Source of the DNA: Propionibacteriaceae bacterium
GTDB taxonomy: Bacteria; Actinomycetota; Actinomycetes; Propionibacteriales; Propionibacteriaceae
Direction: 5' to 3'
NCBI GenBank assembly: GCA_020438595.1
Contig: JAGQUI010000053.1
Location: forward strand, 1 to 10,860
Length of the DNA: 10,860 nt
Position numbers and translations under genes: made by a program. Shown in pieces: positions 1 to 10,764 of this stretch. The number at the start of each line of letters is the position of its first letter. Position 1 is the stretch's first letter. The notes under the pieces are model-generated. The model searched no databases. It was given only the letters and a program-made list of their open reading frames with translations, and had not been told where the DNA came from.

Positions 1-1567
1 CGAGCTGCTCGTCCGGGCCGACGAGGGGGACGCCGAAGCGGTGGCCGAGCTCGAGTCGGCGTTCGCCGGGCCGCTGGAGTTCGGTACGGCCGGCCTGCGC
101 GGGCCGCTGGGTCCGGGTCCGGCCCGGATGAACCGGGTCGTGGTGAGCCAGGCGGCGGCCGGCCTGGCCGCGCACCTGCGCAGCCTGGGCCAGGAGGGCG
201 GACGGGTGATCGTCGGGTTCGACGCCCGCTACAACTCCGAGGTGTTCGCCGCGGACACCGCAGAGATCCTCGCCGGGGCGGGCCTGTTCCCGCTGCTGTG
301 CTCGCGCCCGCTGCCCACCCCGGTGGTCGCGTTCGGCATCCGCCACTTCGAGTGCGTGGCCGGGGTCGTCGTCACGGCGTCCCACAATCCCCCGCAGGAC
401 AACGGCTACAAGGTCTACCTGGGCGACGGCTCCCAGATCGTGCCGCCCACCGACAGCCAGATCGCCGCGCAGATCGCCGCGGTCGCGGCCCACCCGGTGG
501 CCGACATCGCCCGTAGCGACGACTACCCGCTGGTCGGGGACGAACTGGTCGACGCCTACGTGGCCAGGGCCGCCTCGCTGGTGCCGCCCGAGGCGCCGCG
601 CGACGTGACCTGGGTGTACACCGCGATGCACGGGGTCGGCGCGGCGGTGGTCGACCAGGTCGTGGCCGCGTCCGGGTTCGGCGAGCCGTACCGGGTGGCC
701 GCGCAGATCGAGCCCGACCCGGCCTTCCCGACCGTGCCGTTCCCGAACCCGGAGGAACCCGGCGCCATCGACCTCGCCCTCGGCCTCGCCATCGAGACCC
801 GCGCCGACATCGCGATCGCCAACGACCCGGACGCCGACCGCTGCGCCGCGGCCGCCGTGGTCGACGGGAGCTGGCGGATGCTCACCGGCGACGAACTCGG
901 CGCGCTGCTGGCCGACGACCTGCTCCGCCGCGGCGTGAGCGGGACCTACGCCTGCTCGGTCGTCTCCAGCACGCTGCTGGCCTCGATGGCCGCCGCGCAC
1001 GGCCAGCCGTTCGCGACCACGCTGACCGGGTTCAAGTGGATCGGACGGGTACCCGGGCTGGCGTTCGGCTACGAGGAGGCGATCGGCTACTGCACCGACG
1101 CCGCCGCCGTGCCCGACAAGGACGGCATCACCACCCTGGTCCGGATCCTCGCCCTCGTCGCCGAACTGAAGGCGGCCGGGCAAACCGTGGCGCAGCGGCT
1201 CGACGAGATCGCCCGCGACTACGGCGTACACCTCACCTCACAACTCGCGTTCCGCGTGGCCGACCTGAGCCTGATCGCCGACGCGATGGCGCGTGTCCGG
1301 GCCACTCCCCCGGTCGAGCTGGCCGGAGAACCGGTCTCGGCGACCGACCTCGCGACCGGCGGCGCCGAGCTGCCGCCCACCGACGGCATGCTGTTCGAGG
1401 GCGCCTCCGTGCGCGTGGTGGTGCGTCCCTCGGGCACCGAGCCCAAACTCAAGTGCTACCTGCAGGTGCGGCTGCCCGCCGGCGGCGACCTCGCGTCCGA
1501 CCGGGCCAGGGCCGCGGAACTCATGGCCCGGGCGCGCGCCGACATGACCACAGCCCTCGGCCTGTGA
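1..1567 (+). CDS. pmmB: Phospho-sugar mutase (phosphomannomutase/phosphoglucomutase family, PmmB type), 5' truncated
   Basis: An alpha-D-phosphohexomutase interconverts sugar 1- and 6-phosphates (or pentose 1- and 5-phosphates) in the cytoplasm through a phosphoserine. The frame is open from base 2, and the text before the first GTG at 41 still reads like family sequence, so the true start lies upstream of the window. Numbering from the codon at 41, the phosphoserine loop TASHNP has Ser114, the metal loop DPDADR is 262-267, the sugar-specificity loop GYEEAIG is about 343-349, and the phosphate-binding RPSGTEPK is 462-469. All four active-site loops are intact. Known context: in mycobacteria the pmmB gene lies among purine nucleoside phosphorylase and upp salvage genes. 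With a uridine-kinase-like gene next door, a phosphopentomutase role in nucleoside salvage is as plausible as a mannose role. The stop TGA at 1565 overlaps the next start. The family is certain; the substrate is inferred. Confidence 0.93.
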   Translation, partial: ELLVRADEGDAEAVAELESAFAGPLEFGTAGLRGPLGPGPARMNRVVVSQAAAGLAAHLRSLGQEGGRVIVGFDARYNSEVFAADTAEILAGAGLFPLLCSRPLPTPVVAFGIRHFECVAGVVVTASHNPPQDNGYKVYLGDGSQIVPPTDSQIAAQIAAVAAHPVADIARSDDYPLVGDELVDAYVARAASLVPPEAPRDVTWVYTAMHGVGAAVVDQVVAASGFGEPYRVAAQIEPDPAFPTVPFPNPEEPGAIDLALGLAIETRADIAIANDPDADRCAAAAVVDGSWRMLTGDELGALLADDLLRRGVSGTYACSVVSSTLLASMAAAHGQPFATTLTGFKWIGRVPGLAFGYEEAIGYCTDAAAVPDKDGITTLVRILALVAELKAAGQTVAQRLDEIARDYGVHLTSQLAFRVADLSLIADAMARVRATPPVELAGEPVSATDLATGGAELPPTDGMLFEGASVRVVVRPSGTEPKLKCYLQVRLPAGGDLASDRARAAELMARARADMTTALGL

Positions 1568-2157
1568 GCGGGGCGCCTCCGCGGCTGGTGCTGATCGCCG
1601 GCGCGTCCGGCAGCGGCAAGTCCCGGCTGGCGCACCTGGCCGGCTGCCCGTCCCTGCGGCTGGACGACTTCTACTTCGACGCCGACCACCCCGACCTGCC
1701 GCGCTCGCCGCTCGGGATCGTGGACTGGGACGACCCGCGCTGCTGGGCCGCGGACGCCGCCGTCGCCGCGCTGAAGGAGTTGCTGGCGTCCGGACGGATC
1801 GTGGCGCCGGCCTACTCGATCCCGGAGAGCCGCCGGGTGGGCAGCCACGAGGTGCGCCTGGACGGAGCGTCCTGCCTGACCGCCGAAGGCATCTTCGCGA
1901 TCGAATTCCTGGCCACCTGCCGCGCCGCCGGCCTGGCCGCCGACGCCGTCTACCTCGACCGTCCCGGCTTCGTGGTGTTCTGGCTGCGGTTGCGCCGCGA
2001 CCTGGCCCGGAAGCGCAAGCCCCCGCGGATCCTGTTCCGGCGCGGGCTCGCGCTCTGGCGTGCCCAGCCGGCGCTGAAGCGCAAGGCGCTCGCCGCCGGG
2101 TTCACCCCGATGTCGATGCGGGCCGCCGTCGCGCACCTCGCCAGCACTTCGCCGTAA
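1564..2157 (+). CDS. Uridine kinase-like P-loop NTPase
   Basis: A 197-residue cytoplasmic protein of the uridine kinase/phosphoribulokinase-like P-loop group, which would phosphorylate a nucleoside or related small molecule with ATP. The start is the GTG at 1564, whose last two bases belong to the mutase stop TGA (GTGA overlap), indicating translational coupling. The reading frame stays open far upstream, but only as a shadow of the mutase gene. Visible motifs are the Walker A GASGSGKS at 13-20, an acidic substrate-site stretch DDFYFD at 34-39, WDDP at 55-58 (where uridine kinases have a similar Asp-His-Pro element), the strand EGIFA at 108-112, and an Arg/Lys-rich lid-like region at about 142-163. 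The length matches small uridine kinases. The phosphorylated substrate cannot be read from the sequence, and some proteins of this kind are annotated only as ATP-binding proteins. Its partner gene supports a salvage role. Confidence 0.82.
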   Translation: MSGAPPRLVLIAGASGSGKSRLAHLAGCPSLRLDDFYFDADHPDLPRSPLGIVDWDDPRCWAADAAVAALKELLASGRIVAPAYSIPESRRVGSHEVRLDGASCLTAEGIFAIEFLATCRAAGLAADAVYLDRPGFVVFWLRLRRDLARKRKPPRILFRRGLALWRAQPALKRKALAAGFTPMSMRAAVAHLASTSP

Positions 2158-2206: not shown

Positions 2207-2235
2207 TTGCCCGACTCCCGCCGGCTTGTTAGGGT
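2207..2235 (+). promoter_or_regulatory. Sigma-70-type promoter of the osmoprotectant ABC operon
   Basis: TTGCCC at 2207-2212 and TAGGGT at 2230-2235 are separated by exactly 17 bases, and a TG one base before the -10 (2227-2228) makes an extended -10. Transcription would begin near 2242, about 180 bases before the first start codon, leaving a long untranslated leader. Just upstream, GAAC-ATC-GTTC (2192-2202) is a small inverted repeat that could be an operator, though such short repeats also occur by chance. Seen by eye and not tested. Confidence 0.55.
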
Positions 2236-2241
2236 CGGCAG

Positions 2242-2423
2242 TCGGCGCCGGTCCTCGAACCGGCGGTGGGCCGCGTGCGTCGGGGGAGATTCCTCCGGAT
2301 GTACGTACGGTGTGGGGAGTCTCGTGCGCCGGCGATGAGCGCCGGTGTTCCACGAGCCCGGGGGCCGAACCCCCGGGCGGGATTCCACGACCCGGTCGGC
2401 GGTGACTCCGCCCGGAGGGACGA
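2242..2423 (+). ncRNA. Structured 5' leader of the osmoprotectant operon (riboswitch-like, unrecognised)
   Basis: This roughly 180-base leader can form five hairpins in series. (a) 2246-2252 with 2259-2265, 7 pairs. (b) 2281-2287 with 2291-2297, 7 pairs including one G-U, extendable by 2275-2280 with 2303-2308. (c) 2321-2326 (CTCGTG) with 2351-2356 (CACGAG), capped by CCGGCG/CGCCGG around ATGAG. (d) 2356-2364 with 2370-2378, 9 perfect pairs around CCGAA; base 2356 cannot be in (c) and (d) at once. (e) GGCGG 2398-2402 with CCGCC 2408-2412. GTGG at 2312-2315 can also pair with CCAC at 2385-2388, closing (c) and (d) into a junction. The 3' strand of (b), 2290-2298, is complementary over 9 bases (one G-U) to 2412-2420, which contains the Shine-Dalgarno GGAGGG. 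This gives two mutually exclusive folds. I do not recognise it as a known riboswitch class. GC-rich DNA pairs easily, so covariation is needed. Confidence 0.5.
2414..2419 (+). promoter_or_regulatory. Ribosome binding site fixing the GTG start of the ATPase gene
   Basis: GGAGGG sits 4 bases before the GTG at 2424. It begins two bases after the last leader hairpin and lies inside the stretch that is complementary to 2290-2298, so it could be hidden or exposed by refolding of the leader. Confidence 0.6.
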
Positions 2424-3704
2424 GTGGACGAAACGACAATCGCGTTGCGTGCCGAAGGCCTGTTCAAGGTCTTCGGACCACGCCCGCAGGCGGCGGTACG
2501 CAAGCTTCACGAGGGAATCGGTCGGGATGAACTCGGCGACAACGTGACCGCTGCGGTCATCGACGCGTCGTTCGAGGTGAAGGTCGGCGAGATCTTCGTC
2601 GTGATGGGCTTGTCAGGATCCGGCAAGTCGACGCTGATCCGGATGCTGAACGGCCTCTGGGATGCCACCGCGGGCAGCGTCACGATCGGCGGCGAGACCA
2701 TCACCGGCGTCAGCCACAAGCGCCTCCGCGAGATCCGGGAGCAGCGGATCTCGATGGTGTTCCAGCACTTCGCGCTGCTCCCCCACCGCACCGTGCTCGA
2801 CAACGTCGCCTACGGCCTCGAGATCCGCAAGGTGCCGCGGGCCGAACGCGAGGCCCGGGCGCGTGAGGTGGTCCGGCTGGTCGGCCTCGAGGGCTGGGAG
2901 CGGCGACTGCCGGGCCAGCTGTCCGGCGGCATGAAGCAGCGCGTGGGCCTCGCCCGGGCGCTGGCCGCCGACACCGAGGTGCTGCTCATGGACGAGGCGT
3001 TCTCCGCCCTCGACCCCCTGATCCGGCGCGAGATGCAGGAGCAGCTGCTGGAGCTGCAGGAGAGCCTCGGCAAGACCATCGTCTTCATCACCCACGACCT
3101 GAACGAGGCCATGTTCCTGGGTGACCGGATCGCGGTGATGCGGGACGGGCGGATCGTCCAGATCGGCACCCCGGAGGACATCCTCACCGACCCCGCCAAC
3201 GACTACGTCGCCCAGTTCGTCCAGGACGTCGACCGCGCCCGGGTGCTCACCGCCGGCGCCGTGATGGAGCAGCCGCGCGCCCTCGTCCAGCTCGGCGCCG
3301 GCCCGCGGGCGGCCCTGCGGGCAATGCGGGACACCCAGTCGGCGACGGCGTTCGTGGTCGACCGCGGACGCAAGCTGGTCGGCCGGATCAGCGACCGCGC
3401 AGCGCTCGACCTCGTCCGGGCCGGGGAGACCAGCCTGAAGGGACACCTCAGGACGGCGGCCACCGTGGAGCCCTCTGCCCTGCTCGCCGACCTGTTCATG
3501 ACCGCGGTGGAGACCTCGGCGCCACTCGCGGTGGTCGATGCCGGGCAGCGACTGCTGGGCGTGGTGCCGCGGGTCACGCTGCTGGCCGCCCTCGGCGGCG
3601 AGACCGAGGCCGGCCGGACCGCCCCGCTCGCGCACCGGGCGCTGCCGACGTCCGTGATCGACACCGTCCTGGAACCGGCGCCGACGAACGGGGAGGTGGG
3701 CTGA
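2424..3704 (+). CDS. proV: Osmoprotectant (glycine betaine/proline-type) ABC transporter ATP-binding protein with CBS region
   Basis: A 426-residue cytoplasmic ATPase that powers a ProU/OpuA-type compatible-solute importer. The opening (KVFGPRP..., about residues 15-45) is the N-terminal extension typical of ProV/OpuAA. The ABC elements are complete: Walker A GLSGSGKST at 62-70, Q-loop Gln114, signature LSGGMKQ at 166-172, Walker B VLLMDE at 186-191, D-loop SALDP at 194-198 and switch His224 in ITHD. Residues about 277-395 form a degenerate CBS pair. In OpuA this region senses ionic strength, and in related transporters it binds cyclic di-AMP; which applies here is unknown. The GTG at 2424 is chosen for its strong Shine-Dalgarno and because it begins the conserved family N-terminus. 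The stop TGA at 3702-3704 shares its A with the permease ATG. Solute specificity is inferred from family and operon content. Confidence 0.95.
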   Translation: MDETTIALRAEGLFKVFGPRPQAAVRKLHEGIGRDELGDNVTAAVIDASFEVKVGEIFVVMGLSGSGKSTLIRMLNGLWDATAGSVTIGGETITGVSHKRLREIREQRISMVFQHFALLPHRTVLDNVAYGLEIRKVPRAEREARAREVVRLVGLEGWERRLPGQLSGGMKQRVGLARALAADTEVLLMDEAFSALDPLIRREMQEQLLELQESLGKTIVFITHDLNEAMFLGDRIAVMRDGRIVQIGTPEDILTDPANDYVAQFVQDVDRARVLTAGAVMEQPRALVQLGAGPRAALRAMRDTQSATAFVVDRGRKLVGRISDRAALDLVRAGETSLKGHLRTAATVEPSALLADLFMTAVETSAPLAVVDAGQRLLGVVPRVTLLAALGGETEAGRTAPLAHRALPTSVIDTVLEPAPTNGEVG

Positions 3705-4633
3705 TGGACGGCTTCCGCATTCCGATCGGTGACTGGGTCGCCGATGGCGTCGACTGGGTGGTGCAGAACGCCGAGACACCTTTCCTGTGGCTGCGCACCC
3801 TCTTCCTCGGTCTCTACGACCTGCTCGACGCGGCCCTGACCAGCGTCTCCCCGTGGCTCCTGATCGTCCTCGTCGTCGTCCTGGCGCTGTTCGCGCGGGG
3901 CTGGGTGTTCGCCCTCGGCGGCGGCATCGGCCTGATCCTGATCATGGGCATGGACCAGTGGACCAACGCGATGGACACCCTGTCGCTGGTGCTGGTCTCC
4001 GCGTTCCTGGCGATCGTGATCTCGATCCCGCTGGGCATCCTCGCCGCGAAGTCCAGAGCCGTCTCCCTGGTGGTCCGCCCGATCATGGATTTCCTGCAGA
4101 CCATGCCCGCCTTCGTCTACCTGATTCCTGCGCTGCTGCTGTTCCGCGTGGGCGTCGCACCGGGCATCGTCGCCACGATCATCTTCGCGCTCGCCCCGGG
4201 CGTCCGGCTCACCGAACTGGGCATCCGCGGCGTCGACCGCGAGGTGGTGGAGGCCGGCGCGGCCTTCGGCGCCACCCCCGCGCGCATCCTGCGCCAGATC
4301 CAGCTCCCGCTCGCGATGCCCAGCATCATGGCCGGCGTCAACCAGGTGATCATGCTGTCGTTGTCGATGGTCGTGATCGCCGGGCTGGTCGGCGCCGGTG
4401 GCCTGGGCGGTGACGTGATCGCGTCGCTGAACCGGCTGGACACCTCGCTCGGCGTGGAGGCCGGGCTCTCCGTGGTGATCCTCGCGATCCTGCTCGACCG
4501 GTTCACCAGCGCCTTCGGCGAACACCGCGGGCTGTACGCGCGGCTGCGCGCCCGGCAGATCGCCGCCCGCGAAGCGAACGGCTCCGGCGCCGACGACGAC
4601 CGGGAGGTGCGGGCGGACGCCACGGTCGCCTGA
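3704..4633 (+). CDS. proW: Osmoprotectant ABC transporter permease
   Basis: A 309-residue inner-membrane permease of the ProW/OpuAB family, the channel for the compatible solute. The N-terminus has the amphipathic stretch seen in ProW (IPIGDWVADGVDWVVQN, about 6-22). Hydrophobic segments follow at about 50-66, 68-83, 92-115, 128-147, 150-168, 209-235 and 250-266. The coupling loop that docks on the ATPase is the EAA motif EAGAAFGATPARILRQIQLP at 183-202, in the usual place. The hydrophilic tail from about 272 is longer than in a minimal permease and ends in a run of Asp, Glu and Arg. The ATG shares one base with the ATPase stop, and a GGGGAGGTG ribosome site lies at 3690-3698 inside that gene, so translation is coupled. 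One permease gene presumably forms a homodimer. Confidence 0.95.
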   Translation: MDGFRIPIGDWVADGVDWVVQNAETPFLWLRTLFLGLYDLLDAALTSVSPWLLIVLVVVLALFARGWVFALGGGIGLILIMGMDQWTNAMDTLSLVLVSAFLAIVISIPLGILAAKSRAVSLVVRPIMDFLQTMPAFVYLIPALLLFRVGVAPGIVATIIFALAPGVRLTELGIRGVDREVVEAGAAFGATPARILRQIQLPLAMPSIMAGVNQVIMLSLSMVVIAGLVGAGGLGGDVIASLNRLDTSLGVEAGLSVVILAILLDRFTSAFGEHRGLYARLRARQIAAREANGSGADDDREVRADATVA

Positions 4634-4739: not shown

Positions 4740-5633
4740 ATGAAGAAGCTGGCCACCGCGCTCACCGCCGCGGCCGCAGCGACCACACTGTTCATCGGGG
4801 GGTGTTCGTCGACGGCCCCCGGAACCACGACCTCAGAGTCGACGAGCGACAAGACCGTCACCCTCGCCGTCTTCAACGGCTGGGACGAGGGCATCGCGAG
4901 CTCCGAGTTGTGGAAGGCGATCCTGGAGGACAAGGGCTACACGGTGAACCTCGAGTACGCCGACGTGGCGCCGTTGTTCGCCGGCCTGTCGACCGGGGAC
5001 TACGACTTCGCGACGGACATCTGGCTGCCGACCACCCACGCGTCCTACATCGACGAGTTCGGTGACAAGATCGTCGACGTCGGCACCTGGTTCGACCAGG
5101 CGAAGCTCACCCTCGCGGTGAACGAGGACGCCCCGATCACCTCGCTGGACGAGCTGGCCGCGAACGCCGACGCCTTCGACAACAAGATCATCGGCATCGA
5201 GCCGGGCGCCGGCCTGACCAAGACCGTCGAGGAGAAGGTCATCCCGGAGTACGGCCTGGACAAGATGACATTCACCACCTCCTCCACCGCAGCCATGCTC
5301 ACCGAGCTGAAGGCCGCCACGGACGCCGGCGAGAACATCGTGGTCACCTTGTGGGAGCCACACTGGGCCTACAGCGCGTTCCCGATCCGCAACCTCGAGG
5401 ACCCGAAGGGCACCCTGGGCGCCGCCGAGGGCATCCACGTGTACAGCCGCACCGGCTTTGCCGACGACCATGCCGAGGTCGCGGGCTGGCTCGCCGACTT
5501 CACGATGACCCCCGACCAGCTCTACAGCCTGGAGGACCTGCTGTTCAACCAGAACGACACCGACGACTACGGTCCGCTGGTGAAGCAGTGGATCTCCGAG
5601 AACCAGGACTACGTCGATTCGCTGACCAGCTGA
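4740..5633 (+). CDS. proX: Osmoprotectant ABC transporter substrate-binding lipoprotein
   Basis: A 297-residue extracytoplasmic binding protein of the OpuAC/ProX family that captures a quaternary-amine-type solute and passes it to the permease. The N-terminus is a lipoprotein signal: two Lys, a hydrophobic stretch 4-19 and a lipobox IGGC, with Cys22 to be lipidated. A short Thr/Ser-rich linker (24-38) precedes the globular part. Family landmarks are FNGWDE at 45-50, DIWLPTTHASY at 93-103, GIEPGAGL at 152-159 and TLWEPHWAYS at 203-212. Trp48, Trp95, Trp205 and Trp209 are candidates for the aromatic cage that binds trimethylammonium groups in this family. The start ATG has a Shine-Dalgarno 9 bases upstream. 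The gene ends the operon, about 20 bases before a strong terminator. The exact ligand (glycine betaine, proline betaine, carnitine or choline) cannot be read from the sequence. Confidence 0.94.
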   Translation: MKKLATALTAAAAATTLFIGGCSSTAPGTTTSESTSDKTVTLAVFNGWDEGIASSELWKAILEDKGYTVNLEYADVAPLFAGLSTGDYDFATDIWLPTTHASYIDEFGDKIVDVGTWFDQAKLTLAVNEDAPITSLDELAANADAFDNKIIGIEPGAGLTKTVEEKVIPEYGLDKMTFTTSSTAAMLTELKAATDAGENIVVTLWEPHWAYSAFPIRNLEDPKGTLGAAEGIHVYSRTGFADDHAEVAGWLADFTMTPDQLYSLEDLLFNQNDTDDYGPLVKQWISENQDYVDSLTS

Positions 5634-5731: not shown

Positions 5732-5737
5732 TACGAT
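5732..5737 (+). promoter_or_regulatory. Possible -10 box of the phosphate permease gene
   Basis: TACGAT fits the actinobacterial TANNNT pattern and lies at the very start of the permease reading frame. Its distance to the in-frame GTG at 5745 is 7 bases, which would make a leaderless transcript starting at that GTG. The best -35 is poor (TTTCCA at 5707-5712, with a 19-base spacer). No Shine-Dalgarno is visible before the ATG at 5736. Confidence 0.35.
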
Positions 5738-6977
5738 GAAGAGCGTGACCCCTGAGTTCATACTCTTGGCACTCGTTGTTATCACGGCGTTGGCCTTCGA
5801 TTTCACCAACGGGTTCCATGACACAGCGAACGCCATGGCCACCTCGATCGCAACGAAGGCGTTGAGCCCGAAGGCAGCCGTCACCCTCTCGGCCATCCTG
5901 AATCTGGTCGGCGCCTTCCTCTCCGTCGAGGTCGCCATCACCGTCACCAACGCCGTGATCCGGATCCAGAACCCCGACGGTACTCCCATCCCGGCGCTGA
6001 TGGCGGACGACGGCTACGGCCTGCTGCTGATCCTGATGGCGGGCCTGGCCGGCGCGATCATCTGGAACATCCTGACCTGGCTGTGGGGGTTGCCCTCGAG
6101 TTCCTCGCACGCCCTGTTCGGCGGCCTGATCGGGGCCACGATCGCCAGCATGGGCTGGGGCGGCGTCAAGTGGATCGGCGACGGCGCGAAGCTCGACGGG
6201 GTGATCGGCAAGGTCATCCTGCCGGGCGTGCTGTCGCCCGTCGTCGCCATCATCGTGGCGATGGTCGGCACCTGGCTGGTGTTCAAGATCACCGAGGGCG
6301 TCGCCCGGCGCTACCAGGAGAGCGGCTTCCGCTGGGGGCAGATCGGCACCGCGTCACTGCTCTCCCTCTCCCACGGCACCAACGACGCCCAGAAGACGAT
6401 GGGCGTCGTGACCCTGGCCCTGATCGCCTCCGGCTACTGGACCGACCCCACCGCGATCCCGGTCTGGGTGAAGATCGCCTGCGCTGTCGCCATCGCCTCC
6501 GGCACCTACATCGGCGGCTGGCGGATCATCCGCACCATGGGCAAGGGCCTCGTCGAGATCCTGTCCCCGCAGGGCATGGCCGCAGAAAGCGCCTCGGCCG
6601 CGGTCATCCTCACCTCGAGCCAGCTCGGTTTCGCCCTCTCCACCACCCACGTCTGCACCGGTTCGATCCTCGGCTCTGGCCTCGGCCGCAAGGGCGCGAC
6701 CGTCCGCTGGCGAGTGGCCGGACGGATGGGTCTGGCCTGGCTGACCACGCTGCCGCTGGCCGGCCTGGTCGGCGCGGCGATGTGGTGGATCGGCCACCTC
6801 ATCGGAGGTACAACCGGCGCGTTCGTCGTGTTCGGCATCATGTGCCTGGCCGCCGTGTACATGTGGTGGCAGTCCCGACGCAACCCGATCAGCCCCCACA
6901 ACGTCAACGACGAGTGGGTCGACGGGGACAGCAGCGGCACCGACTCCGAGGTGCCGGTCTCCGAGGCGGTGCACTGA
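5736..6977 (+). CDS. PiT-family inorganic phosphate transporter
   Basis: A 413-residue integral membrane permease that imports phosphate (often as a metal-phosphate complex) using an ion gradient. The family's duplicated architecture is clear. The first repeat has NGFHDTANAMAT at 25-36 and GLPSSSSHALFGGLIGA at 118-134. The second has SHGTNDAQKTMG at 212-223 and QLGFALSTTHVCTGS at 296-310. About ten hydrophobic segments span residues 8-378, and a polar acidic tail follows. The length is normal for bacterial low-affinity Pit proteins. The ATG at 5736 has no ribosome site; the GTG at 5745, three codons in, is an alternative leaderless start and would leave the protein essentially unchanged. The stop shares its A with the next ATG. 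The family is secure. Affinity and co-substrate are unknown, and no PhoU-like gene is adjacent. Confidence 0.94.
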   Translation: MKSVTPEFILLALVVITALAFDFTNGFHDTANAMATSIATKALSPKAAVTLSAILNLVGAFLSVEVAITVTNAVIRIQNPDGTPIPALMADDGYGLLLILMAGLAGAIIWNILTWLWGLPSSSSHALFGGLIGATIASMGWGGVKWIGDGAKLDGVIGKVILPGVLSPVVAIIVAMVGTWLVFKITEGVARRYQESGFRWGQIGTASLLSLSHGTNDAQKTMGVVTLALIASGYWTDPTAIPVWVKIACAVAIASGTYIGGWRIIRTMGKGLVEILSPQGMAAESASAAVILTSSQLGFALSTTHVCTGSILGSGLGRKGATVRWRVAGRMGLAWLTTLPLAGLVGAAMWWIGHLIGGTTGAFVVFGIMCLAAVYMWWQSRRNPISPHNVNDEWVDGDSSGTDSEVPVSEAVH

Positions 6978-7288
6978 TGCAACAGCTCTGGGCGGCCCTG
7001 GACGGGGCCTGGCGCGTGCTCCTGGTGGGCCTGGTCCTCGGCGCGGGACTCCCTGCGATCTTCGCCCTGGGCGTGCGGTCGCTCGCGTGGGGCACCGGCG
7101 GCGAGGCCGCGATCCACGACGACGGCGTCGAACGGAAGCCCCACCCGCTGGGCCGGGTGCTCGCCGTGGTCCTGTTCGCGATCGTCGTACTGGCGGTGCT
7201 CGCCGGGCTCGGCTACATCATCGCCCACGGCATGGGCTGGACGGTCACCTTCAACGGCATCGTCCCGGTGTTCACGAAGAAGGGCTGA
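6977..7288 (+). CDS. Small two-helix membrane protein coupled to the phosphate permease
   Basis: A 103-residue protein of unknown function. It starts at the ATG that shares one base with the permease stop, so it is translationally coupled to it. Two hydrophobic segments at about 13-34 and 60-84 flank a soluble loop of about 25 residues rich in Gly, Asp, Glu and His (HDDGVERKPHP). The protein ends FTKKG. The tight coupling suggests an accessory or stabilising subunit of the permease; this is inferred from position only. Codon usage and frame look normal for the region. Its last 17 bases overlap, tail to tail, the last codons of the sialyltransferase-like gene on the other strand. Confidence 0.8.
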   Translation: MQQLWAALDGAWRVLLVGLVLGAGLPAIFALGVRSLAWGTGGEAAIHDDGVERKPHPLGRVLAVVLFAIVVLAVLAGLGYIIAHGMGWTVTFNGIVPVFTKKG

Positions 7289-8324
7289 GCACCACCGGCT
7301 GCAGGCCGGCGGCCGAGACCGCCTGCTGCATGTCCTGCGCCACCCGGGCGAGCAGCGCGCGCGCCCGCAGGCCGACGTGAGCCCGGATCATCGACTCCGG
7401 CAGCGGCTGGACGGCGATCCGGCTGCCCACCCCGCCCAGCACGAGCGGCAGCGTGTAGCCGACCGAGGACGGGAAGCTCGCCAGCTGGGTGGCCACGGGC
7501 CCCCGGCGCAGCTCGATCTCCAGCGGCACCTTCGGCCGTACGATCCGCAGCCCCGTCCGCAGCGAGAGGTCCCGCAGCTTGTCGGGATGCTCACGCCGGT
7601 GCGCGAAGTAGCGTCCGGCCGCGCCCTGCTGCCCGGCGAGCCGCGCCACCGCATCCAGGTAGGCGTCGGAGTCGACCACGCCGGTCTCCACGAGCGAGGA
7701 GCCGACCACGTCCACCCCGCGCAGCAGCCGGGGCGGGCCGAACCGGCGCCGCGTCCAGTCGTAGCCGTGGTGCTCGACCCGGCTGCCCGGCAGCGCGGTG
7801 ACGCTCATCACCGTGAACAGCTGCAGGTGGGCGCGGGACAGGAACCTGCGCGCGTGGTGGGCCAGCGGCACCCGGGCCGCGCCGAGGCCCGCGTGCCAGC
7901 GCCGCAGCGGCTCGCCGCCGGCCAGTTGGGCGGCGAACTCCAGCGTGGCCGTGCCGTCGTCGACCACCACCACCTCGCCGGGCCGTGCGAACGGCAGAAG
8001 GGCCTGGACCATGCCCGAGAACGGGTCGCCGATCACCAGCCGGCGGGCGCCGGCCACGACCGGCCGCAGCTGCGCCAGCGTCCGCACCCGGGCCACGGCG
8101 GACGCCCGCGGCGCGTGCCAACTCAGTGCGATGCCCTCCTCCTCGGCGAAGTCGCCCATCGAGCGCAGTTGCTCGACCGTGACCCGATCGGCGGGAGTGA
8201 GCACCGCGAGGTGCGTGCGTGCGGCGGTGCCCTCGCTGTGGCACCACTCGAGCACGTGCAGGAACTGGGCCGGGCTCTCGACCAGCGCCAGCGTGTCGGT
8301 GCGCATGCGGGGCTCCGTGCTCAT
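7272..8324 (-). CDS. Sialyltransferase/polysialyltransferase-like glycosyltransferase
   Basis: A 350-residue protein, third gene of the neu operon, expected to transfer a sialic-acid-type sugar from CMP to a surface acceptor at the inner face of the membrane. No signal peptide or membrane helix is seen. It begins with a Rossmann-like strand (TLALVESPAQFLHVLEW, 11-27). It carries the three short motifs known from bacterial sialyltransferases (GT52, GT38 and related): an acidic-acidic-Gly motif VDDG at 121-124, a His-Pro motif REHPDK at 244-249, and a Ser-Ser motif FPSSVGY at 284-290, all in the expected order and spacing. Overall similarity to characterised enzymes looks low, so linkage, donor and mono- versus polymerising activity are open. 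The ATG at 8324 overlaps the synthase stop (ATGA) but has a weak ribosome site. The ATG at 8306 (Met7) has GGAG 6 bases upstream and may be the true start. Confidence 0.75.
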   Translation of the reverse strand: MSTEPRMRTDTLALVESPAQFLHVLEWCHSEGTAARTHLAVLTPADRVTVEQLRSMGDFAEEEGIALSWHAPRASAVARVRTLAQLRPVVAGARRLVIGDPFSGMVQALLPFARPGEVVVVDDGTATLEFAAQLAGGEPLRRWHAGLGAARVPLAHHARRFLSRAHLQLFTVMSVTALPGSRVEHHGYDWTRRRFGPPRLLRGVDVVGSSLVETGVVDSDAYLDAVARLAGQQGAAGRYFAHRREHPDKLRDLSLRTGLRIVRPKVPLEIELRRGPVATQLASFPSSVGYTLPLVLGGVGSRIAVQPLPESMIRAHVGLRARALLARVAQDMQQAVSAAGLQPVVLSPSS

Positions 8325-9250
8325 GCCACCCGGTCCGGTCCCGCCTGCGCGGCCTCAGCGACCACGCCGGGGACCCGGCGCAGCTTCTTCATCGCCGTGA
8401 GTTCGCCCGGGTAGACCTGCTTCACGCCGTCGCCCAGGGACTCCTCGATCACCCGGATGTCGCGGACGAGGCGCCGCATACCCTCCGGTTCGACGGACGC
8501 GGACTGGTCCGAGCCCCACATCGCGCGGTCGAGGGTGATGTGCCGCTCCACCATGCACGCGCCCAGCGCCACGGCGCACAGCGTGGTCTGCAGGCCGACC
8601 TCGTGCCCGGAGTAGCCGATCGGCACGTTCGGGTACTCGGCCTCGAGGGTGTTGATCACCCGCAGGTTCAGCTGCTCCGCCGGCGCCGGGTAGGTGCTGG
8701 TGGCGTGCAGCAGCACGATGTTGCGACTGCCCAGCACCTCGACGGCGTGCCGGATCTGCTCGGGGGTGGACATGCCGGTGGACAGGATCACCGTCCGTCC
8801 GGTCGCCCGCAGCGCGCGCAGCAGGGCGTCGTCGGTGAGGCTCGCCGAGGCCACCTTGAACGCGGGCGGGTTGAACGCGCCGAGGAAGTCGACGCTCTCG
8901 GTGTCCCACGGCGAGGCGAACCAGTCGATGCCGACCTCGCGGCAGTACTCGTCGACCTGGCGGTACTGCTCGGCGTCGAACTCGACCCGGCGCCGGTACT
9001 CGATGTAGGTCATCCGGCCCCACGGGGTGTCGCGCTCGAGTTCCCACTGGTCGCGGGGGGTGCACACCTCGGGGGTGCGCTTCTGGAACTTGACCGCGTC
9101 CATGCCCGCGGCCTTCGCCTGGTCGATCAGCGCCAGCGCGGTGCGCAGGTCGCCGTTGTGGTTGATGCCGATCTCGCCGATCACGTAGACCGGCTGGCCG
9201 GGTCCGACCAGCCGTTCGCCGATCCGGCGCAGCCTGGGGTTGAAGCTCAC
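8321..9250 (-). CDS. neuB: NeuB-family sialic acid (N-acylneuraminate/nonulosonate) synthase, lacking SAF domain
   Basis: A 309-residue cytoplasmic aldolase-type synthase that condenses phosphoenolpyruvate with ManNAc, its 6-phosphate or a related hexose to make a nine-carbon sialic-type acid. TIM-barrel landmarks are EIGINHNGD at 26-34 (Glu26), KFQKR at 54-58, FASPWD at 111-116, FKVAS at 131-135 (Lys132), STGMST at 157-162, HATSTYP at 182-188 (Tyr187), YSGHE at 213-217 (His216) and ERHITLD at 235-241 (His237). His216 and His237 are the expected metal ligands. Typical NeuB proteins are about 340-350 residues with a C-terminal antifreeze-like SAF domain that reaches the partner active site; this one stops about 20 residues after the barrel. 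The start is the GTG at 9250, with AGGAGG 7 bases upstream, and it overlaps the activating-enzyme stop by 4 bases. Whether the product is Neu5Ac, KDN or legionaminic-type is not readable. Confidence 0.9.
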   Translation of the reverse strand: MSFNPRLRRIGERLVGPGQPVYVIGEIGINHNGDLRTALALIDQAKAAGMDAVKFQKRTPEVCTPRDQWELERDTPWGRMTYIEYRRRVEFDAEQYRQVDEYCREVGIDWFASPWDTESVDFLGAFNPPAFKVASASLTDDALLRALRATGRTVILSTGMSTPEQIRHAVEVLGSRNIVLLHATSTYPAPAEQLNLRVINTLEAEYPNVPIGYSGHEVGLQTTLCAVALGACMVERHITLDRAMWGSDQSASVEPEGMRRLVRDIRVIEESLGDGVKQVYPGELTAMKKLRRVPGVVAEAAQAGPDRVA

Positions 9251-10455
9251 AGTTGGTCCTCCTCAAGGATCCACGAGGCGATCTCGCGGACGGCTCCGTG
9301 CCCTCCCGGCACGGTGGTGACGGTGCGGGCGGCCGCCCGCACCGATGCGTGGGCCGAGGCGACCGCCACCGGCCAGCCGACCTGCGCGAAACAGGGCAGG
9401 TCGTTGACGTCGTTGCCGAGGTACAGGACGCGGCCCGGCGCCAGCCGCCGTTCGTCCAGCCACAGCGCGAGTTCCTCGCCCTTGGCCGGGATGCCGTGGC
9501 GGCACTCGACGCCGAGCTTGGCCGCCCGCGCCGCGACGACCGGGTTCACCTCGGTCGACAGGATCAGCACCGGCAGGCCGGCCCGGCGCATCGCGGCAAC
9601 GCCCATACCGTCGCCGCGATGCACCGCGACCCGTTCGGTGCCGTCCGCGCCCAGCCAGGCGCGGTCGTCGGTCTGCGTGCCGTCGAAGTCGAGCACGACC
9701 GCGTCGACGTCGCCGGGGATGGGCCGGGTGCGGGCGTCGAGCAGGGGGATCAACGCCCGCGCCCGGTCCAGGTCGGCCGGCTCGTCGATCTCCAGCACCC
9801 GGGCGGGATCGGTCGGCACGGCCACGGTACGTCCGAAGAACCTCCGGCCGGACGCGGCGAAGCCGTCGGCGCGCATCGCGTACACGGCGCCGGTCTCCAG
9901 CCACTCCGGCTCGCGGTCCTGCCGGCGCTGCCGGCCCCGCGCGTCGTGGTTGACGCCGGTGGCGGCGTTCGCGTCCCGCCAGAGGAAGCCGTGGAACGAC
10001 GCGGCGGTGAAGGCGGTGTCGGCGCCGTCGTCCAGGACCGCGGCCACGGCGGCGTCCAGGTCGCCGGCGGTCAGGAACGGGCTGGTGCACTGCACGAGCA
10101 CGACCACCGCGAGGTCCTCGGCGTGGTCGCCGTAGAGCACCTCGACCGCGTGGGTGAGGGCGGACTCGCTGGAGGCGTGGTCGTCGGACAGCTCGGGTGG
10201 ACGCCGCACCGCGATCGCGCCGGCGGCGGTGGCAGCGGCGGCGATCGCCGGATCGTCGGTGGAGACGGCGACCGCACTGATGCGTCCGGCTGCCTGGGCG
10301 GCCCGGATCGCACGCACCACGAGCGGCACCCCGCCGACCCGGGCGAGGTTCTTGCCGGGGACGCCCTTCGACCCACCGCGGGCGGGGATCACGGCCAGCA
10401 CGTCGCCGCGTCCGGGGCCGGCGGTGGTGCCGGGGGGTGTGCTCGTCCTGGTCAC
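9247..10455 (-). CDS. neuA: CMP-sialic acid synthetase fused to a HAD-family phosphatase
   Basis: A 402-residue bidomain cytoplasmic protein. Residues about 17-240 are an N-acylneuraminate cytidylyltransferase, which activates the sugar with CTP: the nucleotide loop ARGGSKGVPGKN at 25-36, STDD at 65-68, QCTSP at 122-126, an Arg-rich RQRRQD stretch at 175-180 and ETGAVY at 187-192. Residues about 248-400 are a KDO-8-phosphate-phosphatase-type HAD domain with all four motifs: DFDGTQTDD at 256-264 (Asp256 nucleophile, Asp258 acid), STE at 300-302, Lys325, and GNDVND at 347-352. The HAD part implies removal of a 9-phosphate before activation, as in the phosphorylated sialic acid route. The frame is open to 10701, but homology begins only at about residue 17. 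GTG 10455 is chosen because a TAGCGT box lies 7 bases upstream, fitting a leaderless message, and no ribosome site precedes any GTG here. Confidence 0.9.
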   Translation of the reverse strand: MTRTSTPPGTTAGPGRGDVLAVIPARGGSKGVPGKNLARVGGVPLVVRAIRAAQAAGRISAVAVSTDDPAIAAAATAAGAIAVRRPPELSDDHASSESALTHAVEVLYGDHAEDLAVVVLVQCTSPFLTAGDLDAAVAAVLDDGADTAFTAASFHGFLWRDANAATGVNHDARGRQRRQDREPEWLETGAVYAMRADGFAASGRRFFGRTVAVPTDPARVLEIDEPADLDRARALIPLLDARTRPIPGDVDAVVLDFDGTQTDDRAWLGADGTERVAVHRGDGMGVAAMRRAGLPVLILSTEVNPVVAARAAKLGVECRHGIPAKGEELALWLDERRLAPGRVLYLGNDVNDLPCFAQVGWPVAVASAHASVRAAARTVTTVPGGHGAVREIASWILEEDQL

Positions 10456-10462
10456 AACCCGC

Positions 10463-10468
10463 ACGCTA
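10463..10468 (-). promoter_or_regulatory. -10 box (TAGCGT) of the sialic acid operon, probably leaderless
   Basis: On the minus strand TAGCGT fits TANNNT, and 7 bases separate it from the GTG at 10455, so transcription would begin at or next to the start codon. No good -35 is visible at 16-19 bases. The lack of any Shine-Dalgarno before the gene agrees with a leaderless start, while the next gene (GTG 9250) has a perfect AGGAGG. Confidence 0.4.
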
Positions 10469-10523
10469 GGCAGGCCGGGCAGCAGGCAGGACACGGTCAG
10501 TCCACCAGTCGGTGAACGGTCGG

Positions 10524-10552
10524 GGAACATTGCGAGGCGCCCGGCGTTGACC
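10524..10552 (+). promoter_or_regulatory. Candidate promoter(s) of the small coiled-coil gene, ECF-sigma-like
   Basis: GGAACA (10524-10529) and CGTT (10545-10548) are 15 bases apart, resembling the GGGAAC...CGTT pattern of stress sigma factors such as mycobacterial SigE and SigH. An overlapping alternative is TTGACC (10547-10552) with CACGTT (10571-10576) at 18 bases, preceded by an extended TG at 10568-10569. Either would serve the gene at 10618. Both are pattern matches by eye only. Confidence 0.35.
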
Positions 10553-10617
10553 CCGGGCAGAGGGTCGTGCCACGTTGGAGGTACGGGCGCCGCGGGGTGC
10601 CCGGATCGGAGGCGACG

Positions 10618-10764
10618 ATGCCCAGCCAGGCCGAGGTGGACGAACTGAAGCGGCGGATCGCGGAACTCGAGGCGGAGCTGGCCGAGGCCAGGCAGGCCCA
10701 TGACAAGCTCCTGCAGGAAGAGGTGAAGTCCGACCAGGCCTGGGGCGAGTTCAACCCCGGCTGA
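10618..10764 (+). CDS. Small coiled-coil protein (48 residues), function unknown
   Basis: A 48-residue protein starting at the ATG at 10618, with GGAGG at 10608-10612 and 5 bases of spacing, a textbook ribosome site that rules out the earlier in-frame codon at 10567. Residues about 5-38 form a charged amphipathic helix with Leu/Ile/Ala heptads (VDELKRRIAELEAELAEA at 7-24), strongly predicted to be a coiled coil, followed by a short polar tail rich in Trp, Gly and Asn. There is no signal peptide or membrane segment. It is divergent from the neu operon and stops 9 bases before the end of the convergent gene. I do not recognise a named family. It is probably a dimerising helical protein and possibly stress-induced, judging from the upstream promoter pattern. 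Confidence 0.75.
   Translation: MPSQAEVDELKRRIAELEAELAEARQAHDKLLQEEVKSDQAWGEFNPG

Follow-up and report, generated by a model that had tools for sequence, protein, structure and literature searches.

A conserved three-way-junction RNA in proV leaders of actinomycetes, a candidate riboswitch-like regulator of osmoprotectant import

To our knowledge, RNA-level sensing of osmotic stress in bacteria is still little understood. The ydaO riboswitch is a sensor of c-di-AMP, an osmotic signal nucleotide, and a study of C. glutamicum reportedly found that a c-di-AMP riboswitch also occurs in Actinobacteria. The proX motif (SRC-29-1) precedes a gene for a glycine betaine/proline betaine transporter; in the accessible part of its description, 17 representatives are given, mainly from Spiribacter and saltwater samples and located before proX, the ligand is unproved, and the candidates named for it are betaine, proline betaine, further osmoprotectants or c-di-AMP (PMC8632094). 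The same part of that text stresses a ribosome-binding site that can be occluded by helix P2 (PMC8632094). The genes named for the Na+-I riboswitch in the accessible part of its source are those of Na+ homeostasis and ATP synthase together with dapB, ablA, eam and kefB (PMC9337991).

The window, i.e., the whole stretch of 10,860 nucleotides analyzed here, derives from a Propionibacteriaceae bacterium and carries proV, proW-like and proX-like genes on the plus strand. The leader of proV proves larger than was at first thought: positions 2269-2397 (plus strand) form a three-way-junction RNA composed of helices P1, P2 and P3, of which P3 carries two further hairpins, P4 and P5. The features of the locus are as follows.

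2207..2235, plus strand: promoter, read from the sequence (-35 box TTGCCC at 2207-2212, 17-nt spacer, -10 box TAGGGT at 2230-2235).
2242..2268, plus strand: SL0, a 5' hairpin between the predicted transcription start and P1, from folding; a small hairpin is seen here by eye in many relatives.
2269..2273, plus strand: 5' strand of P1 (GGCCG), 5/5 pairs with 2393-2397; P1 covaries across the family.
2274..2305, plus strand: P2 hairpin, from folding; its pairs covary.
2304..2311, plus strand: conserved motif CGTACGGT, comprising the end of P2, the unpaired junction UAC (2306-2308) and the start of P3, GGU (2309-2311).
2309..2324, plus strand: 5' strand of P3, from the constrained fold.
2326..2348, plus strand: P4 hairpin within P3, in free and constrained folds.
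2356..2378, plus strand: P5 hairpin within P3, in free and constrained folds.
2379..2392, plus strand: 3' strand of P3, ending in ACC (2390-2392), from the constrained fold.
2393..2397, plus strand: 3' strand of P1 (CGGUC), paired with 2269-2273; the model match described below covers 2269-2398.
2398..2412, plus strand: tail hairpin GGCGG-UGACU-CCGCC directly 5' of the ribosome site, read from the sequence.
2414..2419, plus strand: Shine-Dalgarno sequence GGAGGG, read from the sequence, 4 nt 5' of the GTG at 2424.
2424..3704, plus strand: proV, ATP-binding subunit with a CBS-type C terminus (TIGR01186, 410 bits, above the cut-off; Pfam PF00571).
3704..4633, plus strand: proW-like permease, matching choline/betaine permease models under their curated cut-offs.
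4740..5633, plus strand: proX-like substrate-binding protein (TIGR03414, 97 bits, under the cut-off).

The TTGCCC and TAGGGT boxes with their 17-nt spacer make a transcript start at approx. 2242 reasonable, as an earlier sequence-only reading had proposed; a strict promoter scan of the window leader returned no promoter. The start codon of proV, GTG at 2424, lies approx. 180 nt from this predicted start. A loose pattern, TTGN3-N16-18-TANNNT, which was picked only after the leaders had been read, occurs 5' of P1 in 32 of 83 family leaders (the window included) against 1.0 expected from shuffles, and the -10 box lies at a median distance of 30 nt from P1 (range 16-63; 33 in the window). The five hairpins that had been noticed earlier are likewise recovered, SL0, P2, P4 and P5 in the folds and GGCGG/CCGCC (2398-2412) in the sequence, and hairpins stand by eye at the position of the latter, directly before the Shine-Dalgarno sequence, in relatives L218, L219 and L220. 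What that earlier picture lacked is the pairing of P1 and of P3 over long range, together with the motif CGTACGGT; these join the hairpins into one conserved fold.

Several neighboring genes were identified with less certainty. A Pit-like phosphate (or sulfate) transporter (5736-6977, plus strand; under cut-off) lies 3' of proX, and a uridine-kinase-like protein (1036-2157, plus strand; under cut-off) ends approx. 50 nt 5' of the proV -35 box. As listed, the reading frame of the latter overlaps the gene for a phosphomannomutase, and so it probably begins past 1567. The minus strand at 8324-10701 carries nonulosonic-acid-like genes, namely, a NeuB/PseI-like synthase and a PseF-like cytidylyltransferase fused to a KdsC-like phosphatase, all under curated cut-offs; they adjoin a 350-amino-acid protein (7275-8324) that has no NCBIfam match. 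The nearest proteins to the phosphomannomutase come from Propionicimonas (87% to one named MAG), so a host within the Propionibacteriaceae is probable.

The family was recognized by comparing 80 proV loci from named genomes. An nhmmer search of their 80 upstream regions with the window leader gave a best E value of 0.1, i.e., no useful sequence similarity; thus, a sequence search by itself misses the family. When compared side by side, the upstream regions share a common pattern: a strand ending in CG and followed directly by another CG, a hairpin, CGUAYGGY, a variable arm, and RCC followed directly by CG. In 63 of the 80 loci, the motif CGTA[CT]GG[TC] is found no more than 450 nt upstream of proV, compared with 2.45 expected from Markov shuffles, and it is also present in the window. 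In addition, the flanking 5-mers are able to pair across more than 100 nt and vary together between loci, the best partner having been selected locus by locus; the P1 variants include GUCCG/CGGGC, GGACG/CGUCC, GUCCG/CGGAC, GCCCG/CGGGC and AGACG/CGUCU, and the window has GGCCG/CGGUC.

Covariation was measured on two alignments. A1 holds 32 leaders in a plain MAFFT alignment, from which RNAalifold recovers the three-way junction unaided, with the innermost P1 base paired differently. A5 holds 54 leaders without the window; it was drawn from 80 trimmed cores, 65 of them under 85% identity, several of whose P1 ends had been placed by hand. Eleven (L020, L023, L025, L033, L037, L042, L045, L047, L049, L075 and L079) were left out by choice in order to thin close kin, and L116 (P1 ends unsure) and L137 (for no strong reason) had been removed beforehand and went into held-out tests. 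A further alignment, A4, which omitted 4 of 50 rows fitted with the A1-based model because of wrong 3' ends (L008, L031, L039 and L070), built no model. The tested structure (P1, P2, P3 and the P4 hairpin) was partly derived from these very alignments; with it, 92.0% of the cells in A1 are paired and two-sided changes number 180, compared with 52.5 in shuffled alignments and at most 32 in slid structures. The corresponding figures for A5 are 86.4%, 200, 83.4 and at most 85. The count of A5 pairs with any two-sided change, a less telling measure, is 14 versus 12.9 and was reached by 50 of 500 shuffles. By APC-corrected G statistics, the top 6 of 6,933 column pairs in A5 are all helix pairs (three in P2 and one each in P1, P3 and P4), and helix pairs make up 7 of the top 10 in A5 and 5 of the top 10 in A1. 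The inner P1 pairs, the base of P2, the UA of UAY and the GG/CC of P3 are invariant across A5; position 2 of P1 is unpaired in 18 of the 54 leaders. Judged from this comparison of sequences, the conserved proV leader RNA family is real.

Two elaborations of the fold were seen in subsets of the family. Long forms (L024, L031, L044, L051 and others, from Mycetocola, Leifsonia, Microterricola, Agromyces and other genera) seem by eye to share a sub-element inside P3 that resembles GAUUCGCC ... GGCUUGAG around an additional hairpin. Leaders of the Microbacterium type (L010, L033, L046, L049, L052, L060, L075 and similar ones) have a P2 loop GCUGUG.. that is complementary to ..CACAGC in the P5 region. 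Complementary runs between the two loops in 17 such leaders amount to 126 versus 98.3 with shuffled letters (0/200); a pseudoknot is nevertheless unproved, as partners swapped among rows do as well in 192 of 500 trials.

The window leader itself very probably belongs to this family, as far as comparison with relatives can tell. It can form P1 (2269-2273/2393-2397, 5/5 pairs), its P2 ends in CGUAYGGY with UAY unpaired (CGTACGGT, 2304-2311) and with 4/4 pairs beside the P2 base, and the base of its P3 (GGY/RCC, 2309-2311/2390-2392) abuts P1. A family descriptor composed of core P1, P2, CGUAYGGY and RCCCG, which was written with the window sequence already in view, gives the window 10 of 10 points; an equal score was reached by none of 40,000 dinucleotide shuffles of 2200-2423, among which 932 had the motif and 169 the frame. 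Two covariance models were used, R1 from the A1 leaders only and R2 from A5, i.e., with the window excluded. Within the window, the top match of R1 is 2269-2398 (14.0 bits, E 0.035; next 9.1 bits), and R2 places its top match at the same positions with a modest 23.4 bits (E 0.0035; next 9.1 bits). In a 578-kb search with R1, the window leader was not among the matches at E <= 1. The nearest genome relative found, L218, whose ProV is 76% identical, has the same fold. The sequence-only reading had held that it would fail if homologous leaders lacked conserved structure or covariation; the covariation in A1 and A5 and the match of the window-free model contradict such a lack.

Folding energies were examined in parallel. 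Both 2242-2440 (z -2.4) and 2269-2397 (z -4.0) fold more stably than shuffled sequences (0/200 each). In 2269-2397, the family structure has -76.7 kcal/mol versus -79.5 kcal/mol for the free optimum, a cost of 2.8 kcal/mol, and the free optimum moves P3 base pairing by one base; the cost is 0.1 kcal/mol in L218 (-55.1 versus -55.2 kcal/mol), 0.5 in L220 and 0.1 in L099. P1 has a probability of approx. 0.001 in the free ensemble of 2242-2460, where enforcing it costs 8.1 kcal/mol (-114.9 versus -123.0), and of approx. 0.17 in a transcript ended at 2400. P1 is therefore improbable when long transcripts are folded by energy, as rival pairings compete, and the case for it rests on comparison rather than on energy.

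The family is widespread among the proV loci compared. R1 matches the proV leader in 58 of the 80 loci, 32 of which trained the model; the titles of these 58 name 15 genera, which we take to be Microbacteriaceae, and one organism given just as Actinomycetales bacterium. Among 114 further leaders, 35 carry the motif. R2 recovers 5 of 7 motif-bearing loci outside its training set; L003 and L016 (the latter cut by a contig end) bear the motif and gave no R2 match. Leaders of 88 motif-less loci gave none either, apart from one chance match 2 kb upstream at L009. The Microlunatus genome of L022 belongs to what is probably the family of the window; a close proV occurs there in 25 of 198 genomes, and only 3 of these 25 have the motif, namely, the three whose ProV is closest to that of the window (76, 68 and 67%). 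R2 matches two of these three, L220 (37.2 bits, E 0.00017) and L218 (20.8 bits, E 0.089); L219 carries the motif and is not matched. In whole-genome searches, all eight distinct matches with E < 0.02 precede proV, and six weaker matches from one search have no ProV in their locus. Matches off the proV leader were scored as false (6 of 64 in the 578-kb R1 search and 6 of 39 in another). Of 99 genomes sampled at the order level, R1 found 3, and R2 recovered, genome-wide, one of five known carriers at the proV leader, two of the missed ones having been in its training set. Since genome-wide searching thus misses 4 of 5 known carriers, other gene contexts could exist.

In the family of Demequina, to which genome G001 belongs, a close proV was found in 39 of 47 genomes. 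The motif is present in 6 of the 30 leaders fetched, and the remaining 24 have a different, near-invariant leader. This second proV leader RNA (L092-L097, L101-L103, L105, L106, L108-L115 and L117-L121) is built around the block CCGUGAYUGCCGUMCGACGGCUGCG with a covarying hairpin upstream; R2 matched none of the 17 searched.

No Rfam 15 family, that of ydaO included, reaches its gathering score in the window, and 20 diverse proV loci yield one tRNA only. Lax Rfam scans of four leaders returned nothing meaningful; the best lax match to the window leader, mir-H5 on its minus strand, scored 26.8 bits where 90 is the gathering score and was discarded. Literature searches, which covered few subscription papers and no preprints, brought up neither a leader RNA of actinomycete proV nor a validated RNA that senses a compatible solute. 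Within the reach of these searches, the family is undescribed. The shared motif, the covariation and the lack of an Rfam family bear out the sequence-only reading insofar as the osmoprotectant operon is preceded by a structured leader that is conserved and had gone unrecognized.

Comparison of sequences thus shows that there is a fold, that it is conserved, and that it lies between the promoter and the start codon of proV. The RNA at 2269-2397 probably belongs to an undescribed 5' leader RNA family of proV in actinomycetes and probably acts as a riboswitch-like cis-regulator of proVWX. The fold would be transcribed at the 5' end of the proV mRNA and would regulate the proVWX osmoprotectant importer in cis. 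Its most likely mode of action is riboswitch-like: an osmotic signal (a compatible solute, an ion or a nucleotide) may stabilize the junction, whose near-invariant bases lie at UAY and the adjoining pairs, and closing of P1 and P3 would alter access to, or the stability of, the proV start region. A terminator search of the window leader found none, which makes translation or mRNA decay likelier than attenuation. In the free ensemble, bases 2415-2420 of the Shine-Dalgarno region are for the most part left unpaired (0.77-0.94); enforcing P1 in the energy model lowers the unpaired probability of 2417-2419 from approx. 0.8 to 0.36-0.49, a weak hint that the P1 fold could reduce access to the ribosome site in the window. 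A solute, an ion, a nucleotide and a protein are all compatible as the signal. Only tentatively do we suggest a new actinomycete riboswitch class that would recognize a compatible solute (glycine betaine, proline or a choline-derived compound) or an osmotic ion signal in a near-invariant UAY pocket of the three-way junction controlling proVWX, and that would be exchangeable, within the Demequina family, with the second and seemingly unrelated leader.

Among the alternatives, the leader might serve as a protein-binding site, for an RNA-binding regulator or as an element of RNase processing or stability, that sets proV translation or mRNA life. A compact fold that shows no visible expression platform and a single gene context among the eight strong genome-wide matches would fit such a site. 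However, the conserved bases lie at an internal junction and not in exposed loops, which would be more aptamer-like, and no candidate protein emerged from this analysis; this reading is possible and yet rather unlikely. It is less probable still that the fold senses a physical state (ionic strength, K+, temperature or crowding) through how stable it is in itself, with no specific ligand involved. The one target seen is an osmoprotectant importer, and the GC-rich fold is close to alternative pairings. In some leaders from Microbacterium and Cryobacterium, moreover, the 5' flank can pair with GGU of the P3 5' strand (summed runs in 81 leaders, 329 versus 273 +/- 7.7; 0/1000), possibly as an alternative state. 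Yet the near-invariant UAY and its flanking pairs exceed the sequence specificity that a melting sensor needs, and the alternative helix is missing from the window (run of 1); it was therefore left out of the explanation for this locus.

In the switch proposed by the sequence-only reading, the 3' strand of P2 (2290-2298) would cover the Shine-Dalgarno region (2412-2420) in an off state. The complementarity is exactly as reported, nine base pairs with one G-U; enforcing it in 2242-2460 costs 7.6 kcal/mol (-115.4 versus -123.0), slightly less than P1, and a similar geometry of P2 and ribosome-binding site appears in the accessible part of the proX motif text (PMC8632094). Nevertheless, complementary runs of at least 9 over the Shine-Dalgarno sequence arise in 69 of 1000 dinucleotide shuffles, so the pairing by itself is not beyond chance. 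Across 67 leaders whose start codons were set by a simple rule, the duplex between Shine-Dalgarno sequence and leader is on average no stronger than with shuffled Shine-Dalgarno sequences (mean z -0.004). Single leaders, including that of the window (z -3.1), are exceptional in this test, but the Shine-Dalgarno stretch of the window pairs best with 2369-2382 in P5/P3 and not with 2290-2298; in P2 of the closest relative, L218, no complementary strand was seen by eye. This on/off switch is accordingly most improbable: the kind of explanation, a conserved structured leader, stands, whereas the specific switch does not, and the picture from which it was drawn was too small. Chance hairpins of no function, which GC-rich sequence readily forms, can practically be dismissed in view of the z of -4.0 and of conservation and covariation across fifteen named genera and more.

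The favored reading, a riboswitch-like leader RNA of proV, would place a candidate switch in control of how cells cope with salt and drought. A three-armed fold that is common to many related bacteria and absent from the Rfam release searched makes the leader a good candidate for a switch not yet described, and the present work provides a covariation-supported fold for a family without an Rfam 15 match. The Propionicimonas-like metagenomic lineage of the window very probably carries this proV leader RNA as well. Many Microbacteriaceae are easily grown, and since the family is common in this group and its target gene has so far been the same throughout, identification of the ligand is directly testable.

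Among described systems, the ydaO/c-di-AMP riboswitch would resemble the candidate in its osmotic signal and differs in that no Rfam match was obtained at gathering score in the window or, save for the tRNA, in the 20 loci, nor any meaningful one in the four leaders scanned at lax settings. The nearest published idea is the proX motif, which is likewise a candidate riboswitch before a betaine transporter gene (PMC8632094). Compared by description only, and within the accessible part of that source, the proX motif belongs mainly to Spiribacter, precedes proX and has a ribosome-binding site occluded by P2, whereas the RNA described here belongs to actinomycetes and precedes proV. Judging by the average over the 67 leaders, the proV leaders have no conserved strand that covers the ribosome-binding site. 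The Na+-I riboswitch (DUF1646 motif) differs in that the scanned proV leaders gave no Rfam match and that proV is not among the genes named for it in the accessible part of the source; it is, however, an RNA that senses an ion and is linked to genes of osmotic stress (PMC9337991), and thus an ion as the ligand of the proV leader RNA would have a precedent.
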